The position numbers and the translations under genes are program-made. Below the pieces are notes generated by a model. It saw only the letters and a list, made by a program, of their open reading frames with translations, was not told the origin of the DNA and searched no databases. From contig NZ_MUHH01000017.1 in assembly GCF_002217475.1 (NCBI RefSeq), forward strand, positions 48,999 to 112,998: a DNA stretch of 64,000 bases, written 5' to 3'. This DNA comes from Flavobacterium tructae. Its GTDB lineage: Bacteria; Bacteroidota; Bacteroidia; Flavobacteriales; Flavobacteriaceae. Numbering within the stretch: the stretch's first letter is position 1; every line of letters starts with the position of its first letter. This document shows positions 55,301 to 58,164 of the stretch, in pieces.

Positions 55301-55864
55301 ATGAAAAAAATTATTGTTTTTGCCTCAGGATCAGGGACTAATGCTGAAAACATTATAAAGTATTTTGCGAGAACCAAAATTGCGAAGGTCGTTTCGGTTT
55401 TTACAAATAACGCTTCGGCAAAAGTTATAGAAAGAGCAAAAAATCATCAAATTCCAGTCGAAATCTTCTCTAAAAACGAACTTTTGGAGCGAAATGTATT
55501 ACAAAAAATACAAGAAATAGGTCCGGATCTGATAGTTCTTGCAGGTTTCCTGTTGAAATTTCCGGAGAACATCATAGAGCAATATCCCGATCAAATAATA
55601 AACATTCATCCTGCACTTTTACCTAACTACGGGGGCAAAGGAATGTATGGAATGCACATACACAGGGCTGTAGTGGATAATAAAGAAAAAGAAACCGGAA
55701 TCTCTATTCATTTTGTAAATGAAAATTATGATGAAGGCGGTATCATTTTTCAGAAAAGTGTGGCCTTAACCGAAGAAGATACCCCGGAAACTGTGGCTGA
55801 AAAGATTCACGAGCTCGAACAAAAGTACTTTCCGGAAATTATTTCGAGACTATTAGAGGATTAG
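55301..55864 (+). CDS. purN: Phosphoribosylglycinamide formyltransferase
   Basis: 187 residues. FASGSGTNAENI at the start binds phosphate; NIHPALLPNYGGKGMYG holds the catalytic Asn-His pair near 104-106; and ISIHFVNENYDEGGII the catalytic Asp. Transfers formyl to GAR in purine synthesis. Single gene, divergent from acpP; followed by a hairpin repeat. Confidence 0.95.
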   Translation: MKKIIVFASGSGTNAENIIKYFARTKIAKVVSVFTNNASAKVIERAKNHQIPVEIFSKNELLERNVLQKIQEIGPDLIVLAGFLLKFPENIIEQYPDQIINIHPALLPNYGGKGMYGMHIHRAVVDNKEKETGISIHFVNENYDEGGIIFQKSVALTEEDTPETVAEKIHELEQKYFPEIISRLLED

Positions 55865-56010
55865 ACTTTAGATTTCTTAGACATAAGACTTCTTAGATTT
55901 TAATTTCAAATAATAAAAATTTAAGAAGTCTGGAATATAAAAATCTAAGAGATCCAAAAACAAAAATCTAAGTAGTCTAACAATCTAAAATCTAAGAAGT
56001 CTAAAAAAAA
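55863..56010. repeat. Hairpin-forming AGACTTCTTAGAT repeat, second member
   Basis: Left words TTAGACTTTAGATTTC, TTAGACATAAGACTTC and TTAGATTTTAA; right words AAATCTAAGTAGTC and AATCTAAGAAGTCT. Same family as 7769-7900. It fills the gap between purN and rnhA and ends just before the rnhA ATG at 56011, so it may influence rnhA translation. Confidence 0.8.
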
Positions 56011-56487
56011 ATGAGTCACGAAGTACATATATATACAGATGGTGCTGCAAAAGGGAATCCCGGAAACGGGGGGTACGGAGTGGTGATGGAATTGGTTGGA
56101 ACTCCGCATAAGAAAGAATTCTATGAAGGGTTTCGCCTTACTACTAATAACCGAATGGAGCTTTTGGCTGTAATTGTGGGGCTTGAAAAGCTAAAAAAGC
56201 CCAATATGAAGGTTCTGGTAGTTTCAGATTCTAAATATGTCATCGATTCTGTGGTAAAGAAATGGGTCTTTGGTTGGGAGAAAAAAAACTATGCCGGTAA
56301 GAAAAACCCGGATTTGTGGAAACGCTTCCTGATTATTTACCGCAAACATCAGGTCGATTTTAAATGGATTAAAGGACATAACAATCATCCGCAGAACGAA
56401 CGCTGTGATGAGTTGGCTGTTATGGCATCGATGCAGAAAAAACTTTCTGTAGACGTTTATTACGAAACCATAGGTTCAAAATCATAA
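56011..56487 (+). CDS. rnhA: Ribonuclease HI
   Basis: 158 residues. The metal-binding acids are Asp10 (IYTDGAAKGNPG), Glu50 (TTNNRMELLA) and Asp73 (VSDSKYVIDS), with Asp133 and His123 (GHNNHPQNERCDELA). It removes RNA from RNA-DNA hybrids. Ends in a strong shared terminator. Confidence 0.96.
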   Translation: MSHEVHIYTDGAAKGNPGNGGYGVVMELVGTPHKKEFYEGFRLTTNNRMELLAVIVGLEKLKKPNMKVLVVSDSKYVIDSVVKKWVFGWEKKNYAGKKNPDLWKRFLIIYRKHQVDFKWIKGHNNHPQNERCDELAVMASMQKKLSVDVYYETIGSKS

Positions 56488-56489
56488 AA

Positions 56490-56526
56490 AAAAACGCGTC
56501 GAAAACAATTCTTTCGACGCGTTTTT
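56490..56526. terminator. Bidirectional terminator between rnhA and DUF6249 gene
   Basis: AAAACGCGTCGAAA and TTTCGACGCGTTTT make a stem of 14 bases or more, with A-run before and T-run after, so it serves both converging genes. Confidence 0.9.
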
Positions 56527-56553
56527 TGTTGTTAAAAGTATTACGGACTGTTT

Positions 56554-56901
56554 TTACTCTTTGTCTAATTCTTTTGCTTTGCTGAATCCGGCAAGTAAAC
56601 CAACTCCTGCCATAATAAAAATAATAGAAGGATATACTGCTGAATCTTCCAGTGAAGTGTAGGTTGTAATCAGTAAAGCAACGAAAATCCCGACACCGCT
56701 TCCTATTAATAAGAAGGCCAGGTTTAAAACAAGAACCTTCCAGGTTGGAACGCCTTTTCCGCTTCCTTTTAAAAAGATACTGGCATCAACGCCTTTTTCT
56801 ATAAGCGCTAAGCGCTCTCTGTTTCTGGTGGAATAAATAAGATAAATAATCCCGAAGATCATTAGAAACAGGCTTATTGGTACTAAAATTTCTGGTCCCA
56901 T
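56554..56901 (-). CDS. DUF6249-type small membrane protein
   Basis: 115 residues with an N-terminal membrane helix (ILVPISLFLMIFGIIYLIYS), then RNRERLALIEKGVDASIFLKG and two more helices (LVLNLAFLLIGSGVGIFVALLI; PSIIFIMAGVGLLAGF). The RxRxxLIEKG pattern fits DUF6249. Divergent from an ECF sigma gene and with the same promoter motif, so it is probably under that sigma factor. Confidence 0.82.
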   Translation of the reverse strand: MGPEILVPISLFLMIFGIIYLIYSTRNRERLALIEKGVDASIFLKGSGKGVPTWKVLVLNLAFLLIGSGVGIFVALLITTYTSLEDSAVYPSIIFIMAGVGLLAGFSKAKELDKE

Positions 56902-56931: not shown

Positions 56932-56963
56932 ATAGGACGACAGCTTTAAATTTTAGGTTACAA
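56932..56963 (-). promoter_or_regulatory. ECF-type promoter of the DUF6249 gene
   Basis: On the minus strand TTGTAACCT (56955-56963), 11 bases, CTGTCGTCCTAT (56932-56943). The AAC of the -35 and the CGTC of the -10 fit ECF promoters. Leader of about 25 bases to the ATG. Identical, base for base and in spacing, to 57161-57192 on the plus strand. Confidence 0.85.
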
Positions 56964-57079
56964 CTTTAGGTAAAAAAAATCAAAAAATAAATTCCAAATT
57001 CCAAAACATGCTGATTATGAGTTAATTTTGAATATTGAAACTTTGACAAAGCGCTAATGTATTCAATAATCAGATTTTA

Positions 57080-57134
57080 GAACTTGAAACCTGGAACCTG
57101 AAACCTGAAACTTGAAACCTGAAACTTGAAACCT
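57080..57134. repeat. Tandem heptamer repeat (GAAACCT/GAAACTT)
   Basis: Seven consecutive 7-base units from 57086 to 57134: GAAACCT, GGAACCT, GAAACCT, GAAACTT, GAAACCT, GAAACTT, GAAACCT, with a partial unit at 57080. It is upstream of the sigma gene promoter, in the same 296-base gap. Confidence 0.9.
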
Positions 57135-57160
57135 GGATTTTGAGATTTATTTTAAAATTC

Positions 57161-57192
57161 TTGTAACCTGCAATAATAAACTGTCGTCCTAT
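57161..57192 (+). promoter_or_regulatory. ECF-type promoter of the sigma factor gene
   Basis: TTGTAACCT (57161-57169), 11 bases, CTGTCGTCCTAT (57181-57192). The ATG at 57198 is only 5 bases on, so the message has little or no leader. Matches 56932-56963 exactly, which indicates autoregulation. Confidence 0.85.
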
Positions 57193-57197
57193 ATAAT

Positions 57198-57764
57198 ATG
57201 AGTACAATACCGGATCAACATTATATCGATAGAATTTTGCGGGGCGAGACCAATGCGTTTGCCGTGCTGGTAGATCGCTATAAAAATATGATCTTTACTC
57301 TGGCGCTTCAAATGGTTAAAAACAGAGAAGAGGCTGAAGAAGTTTCGCAGGACACTTTTATTAAAATTTATAATTCGCTGAGTAAATTTAAAGGAGATTC
57401 GAAATTTTCGACCTGGGTTTACAAAGTAGCTTATAATACGTGTCTGGATCGTTTGAAGAAAAGTAAAAAAGAAGATCTGAATATTTCGATAGATGAATTT
57501 TCGGCACATTTAATTAAGACCATGGACAATGCTTTGAGTGCTTTAGAAGATAAAGAACGAAAGCAAACGATTCAGAACTGTTTGAATTTGCTGCCGGCAG
57601 AAGAGAATTTTTTATTGACTTTATTTTATTTCGAAGATCAGAGTTTAGAAGAAATTGGAAAAGTTATGGGAATTACAGCCAATAATGTTAAGGTGAAATT
57701 ATTTAGAAGCCGACAAAAATTAGCTGTGATATTGAAAAAGCAATTAGAACCAGAAATAGTGTAA
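57198..57764 (+). CDS. RNA polymerase ECF sigma factor (autoregulated)
   Basis: 188 residues. Region 2 (FAVLVDRYKNMIFTLALQMVKNREEAEEVSQDTFIKIYNSLSKFKGDSKFSTWVYKVAYNTCLDRLKK) and region 4 (LPAEENFLLTLFYFEDQSLEEIGKVMGITANNVKVKLFRSRQKL). This is the general (non-FecI) type. The next gene overlaps or abuts it and is likely its anti-sigma factor. Promoter evidence suggests it activates itself and the divergent DUF6249 gene. The signal may be envelope stress; that is inferred. Confidence 0.9.
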   Translation: MSTIPDQHYIDRILRGETNAFAVLVDRYKNMIFTLALQMVKNREEAEEVSQDTFIKIYNSLSKFKGDSKFSTWVYKVAYNTCLDRLKKSKKEDLNISIDEFSAHLIKTMDNALSALEDKERKQTIQNCLNLLPAEENFLLTLFYFEDQSLEEIGKVMGITANNVKVKLFRSRQKLAVILKKQLEPEIV

Positions 57765-57768
57765 TGTG

Positions 57769-58164
57769 ATGAAAGAGAGCGATAAAAACATAGAAAATCT
57801 TATTGATAAAATGATGAGCGAAACCACTTTAGATTCGCCTTCAATTGATTTTACCTCAAAAGTAATGGCTCAGATTCAGGTAGCTGAAAAGAGTGCAGTC
57901 AAAGTGTATAAACCTCTGATTTCTAAATCGACCTGGTTTGTGATTGGCTTAGGTTTGATTGCTTTGATGGTTTACGCAGTATTCTTTGGCGGAACCAATA
58001 ATAATCTGGAAATTGGAAAATCATATACGGATAAGATTTCGACGTTGTTTTCAGGAATACATTTATCTAAAAATGTTTTATATGCGATTTTAGTAGTTCC
58101 TTTTATGGTTTTGATTCAGGTTGGGGTTTTGAAAAATTATTTTGATAAAAAATATCAGGTATAA
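57769..58164 (+). CDS. Membrane protein, likely anti-sigma factor
   Basis: About 131 residues: a cytosolic N-terminus with DKNIENLIDKMMSETTLDSPSIDFTSKVMAQI, one membrane helix at about 50-70 (STWFVIGLGLIALMVYAVFFG), a short loop, and a second helix at about 108-128 (VLYAILVVPFMVLIQVGVL). ATG at 57769 is used instead of the GTG 3 bases earlier. It begins 4 bases after the sigma stop, the usual place for an anti-sigma gene. Confidence 0.75.
   Translation: MKESDKNIENLIDKMMSETTLDSPSIDFTSKVMAQIQVAEKSAVKVYKPLISKSTWFVIGLGLIALMVYAVFFGGTNNNLEIGKSYTDKISTLFSGIHLSKNVLYAILVVPFMVLIQVGVLKNYFDKKYQV

Follow-up and report, generated by a model that had tools for sequence, protein, structure and literature searches.

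The window (the whole stretch of DNA that was analysed, 64,000 nucleotides) contains a locus in which a gene for an ECF sigma factor and a gene for a small membrane protein of the DUF6249 family are transcribed away from each other, with a second membrane protein gene following the sigma gene. The features discussed below are as follows:

56489..56527, minus strand: strong intrinsic terminator (17-bp stem and T tail) between the convergent RNase H and DUF6249 genes
56554..56901, minus strand: DUF6249 protein (PF19762), 115 aa, three predicted membrane helices, conserved NRERLALIEKG stretch
56932..56963, minus strand: predicted promoter of the DUF6249 gene, TTGTAACCT-N11-CTGTCGTCCTAT; exact match, none in shuffles, kept in 45/45 genus loci and across the phylum
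57161..57192, plus strand: predicted promoter of the sigma/anti-sigma operon, same words with a different spacer; exact match, GTC-to-ATG distance of 9-11 nt in 45/45 genus loci
57198..57764, plus strand: ECF sigma factor, 188 aa, regions 2 and 4 only (PF04542, PF08281 and TIGR02937 above cut-off)
57769..58164, plus strand: putative anti-sigma factor, 131 aa, two membrane helices, beginning 4 nt past the sigma stop codon

All three gene calls of the first-pass annotation of this DNA held. The sigma factor scores above the curated cut-offs of all three profiles (PF04542, 63.2 bits; PF08281, 48.4 bits; TIGR02937, 114.6 bits), and its closest solved structures are SigH, SigW and RpoE. Its ATG at 57198 is the sole possible start, since an in-frame TAA lies 21 nt upstream with no start codon between. 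The DUF6249 protein matches PF19762 with an E-value of 2.2e-15 (56.9 bits against a cut-off of 33); a search for a solved relative or fold of it returned weak matches only, which probably reflect generic membrane helices. Its transcript is closed by the strong terminator, and the gene is therefore probably monocistronic. The protein encoded after the sigma factor has a short cytoplasmic N-terminus with the stretch LExPSxDFTSKVM and membrane helices at 51-69 and 104-122 of a 132-aa open reading frame; a profile search of Pfam and NCBIfam gave no match to it, its structural model (poor, pLDDT 67) consists of two helices and no strands, and a distant relative (L268) has a sub-threshold hit to zf-HC2 (E-value 0.0099). 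By position and topology, this two-helix protein is probably the anti-sigma factor. On plasmids, no DNA similar to the locus was found.

Repeats are present in the intergenic DNA: a 7-bp tandem repeat (AACCTGA or AACTTGA, about eight copies) occupies 57081-57137, directly upstream of the sigma promoter, and imperfect TCTAAGAAGTCTAAAA-type repeats fill the intergenic gap at 55861-56011. The distance between the sigma and DUF6249 genes varies among relatives from about 120 to 560 bp, so that repeats of the 7-bp type may pad the region.

The promoter pair

ECF promoters are typified by an AAC core in the -35 element and a CGTC or GTC core in the -10 element, some 16-18 nt apart. The first-pass annotation had described two sites with identical words and the same spacer length on opposite strands, with differing bases between the words, and this description proved exact: TTGTAACCT-N11-CTGTCGTCCTAT (32 nt) occurs on the plus strand at 57161-57192 and on the minus strand at 56932-56963, the two sites lying 197 bp apart with equal words and different spacers. 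An AAC-N18-GTC core, which is the -35/-10 spacing of the ECF type, precedes both the sigma and the DUF6249 gene. No further sites with up to three mismatches were found in the window, and 100 dinucleotide shuffles yielded no match. A whole-genome search, as the annotation had proposed, was made with the strict pattern TTGTAACC-N(11-16)-TCGTC-N-TA (4.95 Mb in 100 contigs); the pattern occurs in two places only, which are the two sites of the window, and a single-mismatch scan added one more site (G000:C18:35837-35863), before a serine hydrolase gene. A two-mismatch scan of the same genome returned fewer sites than a reversed control, and sites beyond one mismatch were therefore disregarded.

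A chance origin of the pair in AT-rich intergenic DNA has a negligible probability in our estimation, given the absence of matches in the shuffles and the conservation of the pair over genus and phylum described below. Rather than promoters, the words could also be operators that a DNA-binding regulator recognises, or a structural inverted repeat whose copies recombination keeps alike; two identical words 197 bp apart on opposite strands would have the same appearance. We consider this explanation very unlikely: the two copies share their words but not their spacers, which makes gene conversion improbable; the words have the AAC-N18-GTC spacing of ECF promoters and stand at a fixed distance of 9-11 nt from the sigma ATG; and the same element occurs singly before the distant hydrolase gene and before a co-directional operon (L278 and L279).

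Distribution in the genus Flavobacterium

The closest named relatives belong to Flavobacterium, and the sigma factor is 98% identical in Flavobacterium sp. UGB4466. Among 199 genomes of the genus, 47 carry the sigma gene; DUF6249 above its cut-off is confined to these 47 and present in all of them, at the locus of the sigma gene. The motif TGTAACC-N15-TCGTC-N-TA is present in 45 of the 47 genomes with the sigma factor, whereas the other 152 have no such site; of the 90 strict sites in the genus, 87 lie at the sigma/DUF6249 locus, and the reversed control pattern occurs seven times in all. A divergent DUF6249 gene and a downstream two-helix gene accompany the sigma gene in all 46 genus relatives (the two-helix gene is present in all 47 loci), and among the orthologous loci of the genus only the most distant one, G085, lacks the pairing of the motif with DUF6249. 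Both promoters could be aligned in 45/45 genus loci (L083-L127), where the GTC lies 9-11 nt from the start codon of the sigma gene and 33-50 nt from that of DUF6249. Named Flavobacterium loci, including that of F. johnsoniae CI04, carry both strict sites in 76 of 80 cases. The annotation's claim that the sequence gives the target motif of the sigma factor is supported by this tracking of the motif with the sigma gene across the genus and by its fixed distance to the sigma start codon.

Chance was considered as an explanation of the extra sites found in the genus and rejected, as those in G063 and G091 are hydrolase promoters and that in G098 stands before a DUF6249 remnant; two further sites in G185 are probably noise.

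Transcripts from ECF promoters usually begin 5-9 nt after the -10 word. With a GTC-to-ATG distance of 9-11 nt, the sigma mRNA should therefore be nearly leaderless. In F. psychrophilum, leaderless mRNAs make up about 5.5% of the mapped mRNAs (PMC9723704).

Distribution in the phylum and co-variation of the two promoters

The search for DUF6249 was extended to 395 class-level and 345 phylum-level genomes; for distant loci, the E-values accepted and the choice of start codons were generous. An ECF sigma factor of this type lies near DUF6249 in 35 of 37 class-level loci, mostly divergently, and in the other Bacteroidota classes an ECF sigma factor was found within about 1.2 kb of DUF6249 in all 14 loci examined. 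Most loci of the Bacteroidia have TGTAACC and a -10 word ending in GTC at both promoters; in other classes, TGAAACC...GGTCTAA or GGTCAAA is present on both sides. The sigma and DUF6249 genes of L278 and L279 are co-directional and form one operon, with a single such promoter before DUF6249. Some distant loci (L286, L277, L322, L295 and others) have no recognisable promoter pair. In a quick tree, 55 of 59 DUF6249-linked sigma factors fall in one branch (with moderate SH-aLRT support of 88) that is separate from the remaining ECF factors of this genome. Two tandem promoter-like words, perhaps read by two sigma factors, were observed upstream of DUF6249 in L275 and L290, which belong to one family.

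An AAC-N17/18-GTC core is present at both promoters in 81% of 42 loci, against 3.7% for upstream regions shuffled so as to keep base composition only. The -10 words differ between lineages and match within a genome: both promoters have TAGTC in L270, L275, L280 and L287, GCGTC in L271, L274 and L285, and GTGTC in L288 and L292, and in L293 and L260 the spacer is one base shorter in both. Agreement between the two promoters was scored over 10 features, with one locus drawn per family for 15 families; it was 7.9/10 within genomes, a value attained by no permutation, and 5.8/10 between families. Promoter words that drift in step within genomes are strong evidence that one sigma factor reads both promoters.

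These results also bear on the possibility that the sites are real ECF promoters but serve chiefly a different one of the genome's roughly 20 ECF factors, the adjacent sigma factor acting elsewhere. TGTAAC-type -35 words also stand upstream of other ECF genes of the genome (L301, L302 and L304), so that other ECF factors could cross-read, and ECF promoters of F. psychrophilum have a common CGT box that may serve several factors (PMC9723704). Against this, none of the 152 genus genomes lacking this sigma factor has the motif, although the genus has many other ECF factors, and the promoter words drift in step with the lineage of the adjacent sigma factor; we regard reading by another factor as improbable. 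The gene of one of these other ECF factors, L304, has TGTAACA-N14-TCGTC 62 nt before it, which may represent cross-reading or a sister specificity.

A probable third target

The hydrolase gene preceded by the single-mismatch site (L003:409-1467, minus strand, equivalent to G000:C18:34748-35803) encodes an exported serine hydrolase of family PF00144 that contains SxxK and YxN motifs, and in this genome the site lies 33 nt before its ATG. Among the eight genus genomes that have both the sigma factor and a close orthologue (at least 55% identical), the hydrolase promoter is found at -58 to -60 in seven. G098, the eighth genome, has an intact site before a DUF6249 remnant, which lies immediately upstream of the hydrolase gene and next to a decayed copy of the sigma gene. 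This second sigma/DUF6249 pair of G098 (L263:1948-2688) has stops in both genes and one intact promoter, and adjoins an intact hydrolase gene. The hydrolase promoter was found in none of three genomes that have the hydrolase and lack the sigma factor, and no site precedes the more distant hydrolases (about 45-48% identical) of G053, G108 and G042, which do have the sigma factor. In G061 the hydrolase gene directly follows the sigma/anti-sigma pair. We conclude that the exported hydrolase is a probable third member of the regulon. It is related to D-aminopeptidases and class C beta-lactamases, far below their cut-offs, and this relationship hints at cell-wall stress.

Proposed circuit and comparison with known systems

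By building on the comparison of loci, promoters and sigma lineages, we hold it very probable that both sites are the -35/-10 elements of promoters for the ECF sigma factor at 57198-57764, and that this factor transcribes its own operon and the DUF6249 gene while held in check by a putative membrane anti-sigma factor. A membrane-bound anti-sigma factor, most likely the two-helix protein at 57769-58164, would hold the sigma factor until an envelope signal frees it. Once freed, it would transcribe its own operon from a nearly leaderless start together with the divergent DUF6249 gene, a step that the promoter evidence strongly supports, and sigma factor and DUF6249 would rise together; in some species, this one included, it would also transcribe the PF00144 hydrolase elsewhere in the genome, for which there is support, the regulon being otherwise nearly private. 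DUF6249 would be the constant output, and may be a small effector in the inner membrane or act with the anti-sigma factor in feedback. The comparison shows one sigma lineage, a paired promoter and a nearly private regulon.

Two further proposals of the first-pass annotation fit this circuit: that DUF6249 and the sigma/anti-sigma pair form one regulon, which is supported by their pairing in all genus loci except G085 and by the co-variation in 15 families, and that the sigma factor would be self-activating, as its promoter suggests. The annotation did not extend to the hydrolase as a probable third target, to the predicted near-leaderless start of the sigma transcript or to the occurrence of the module throughout the phylum.

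ECF loci that are autoregulated from a promoter of their own are already known as a kind. Like the autoregulated operons of the SigW, RpoE and SigH type, the present locus encodes an ECF sigma factor made up of regions 2 and 4 next to a membrane protein, and has a promoter of its own that resembles AAC...CGTC; it differs from them in having two or three promoters in the regulon instead of dozens, a putative anti-sigma factor that spans the membrane twice with a short loop, and DUF6249 as a constant divergent partner. EcfO-Reo and Das-Dma (ECF21) of Bacteroides are comparable in combining a Bacteroidota ECF sigma factor, an adjacent anti-sigma factor and a strongly induced local locus (PMC13088901, PMC13114119). 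Reo and Dma, however, reach from the cytoplasm to the outer membrane and end in a C-terminal beta-barrel, whereas the protein described here has 131 aa, two inner-membrane helices and, in a low-confidence model, no barrel. The SM6 promoters of Flavobacterium psychrophilum are similar in being ECF promoters with a CGT -10 box, one of which precedes an ECF/anti-sigma operon, but SM6 controls type IX secretion and other genes, and a link to DUF6249 is not described (PMC9723704). CirYZ of Phocaeicola vulgatus is a sigma/anti-sigma pair that also has a few local genes regulated together with it (PMC13114119); there, a co-transcribed Spy chaperone takes the place of the divergent DUF6249 membrane protein found here.

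A literature search for DUF6249 returned one unrelated plant paper and no description in bacteria, and TGTAACC was not described as a Bacteroidota sigma motif in the literature searched; the main ECF classification may already list a group and motif. The phylum-wide module, the link to DUF6249 and the short regulon appear to be undescribed in the literature searched.

A membrane family of unknown function is hereby tied to one ECF sigma lineage, and the target sequence of that sigma factor is named. We tentatively suggest, as a broader reading that may well not hold in full, a sigma circuit that is phylum-wide and nearly private: DUF6249 would be a partner dedicated to it, feeding back on the membrane anti-sigma factor, and the paired promoters would record joint change of the sigma factor and the -10 word from TCGTC to TAGTC, GCGTC, GTGTC and GGTCTAA. 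With no more than two or three promoters, the regulon could be solved completely in one species. As both promoters drift together in each genome, dozens of natural sigma/promoter pairs are available, which could help to explain how -10 words are recognised and could supply orthogonal switches for use in Bacteroidota. Residues of sigma region 2.3 may be linked to the -10 word, a lead that is confounded by ancestry: YK occurs with TCGTC, Y[ST] with TAGTC, and YR with many GCGTC and GGTC words.
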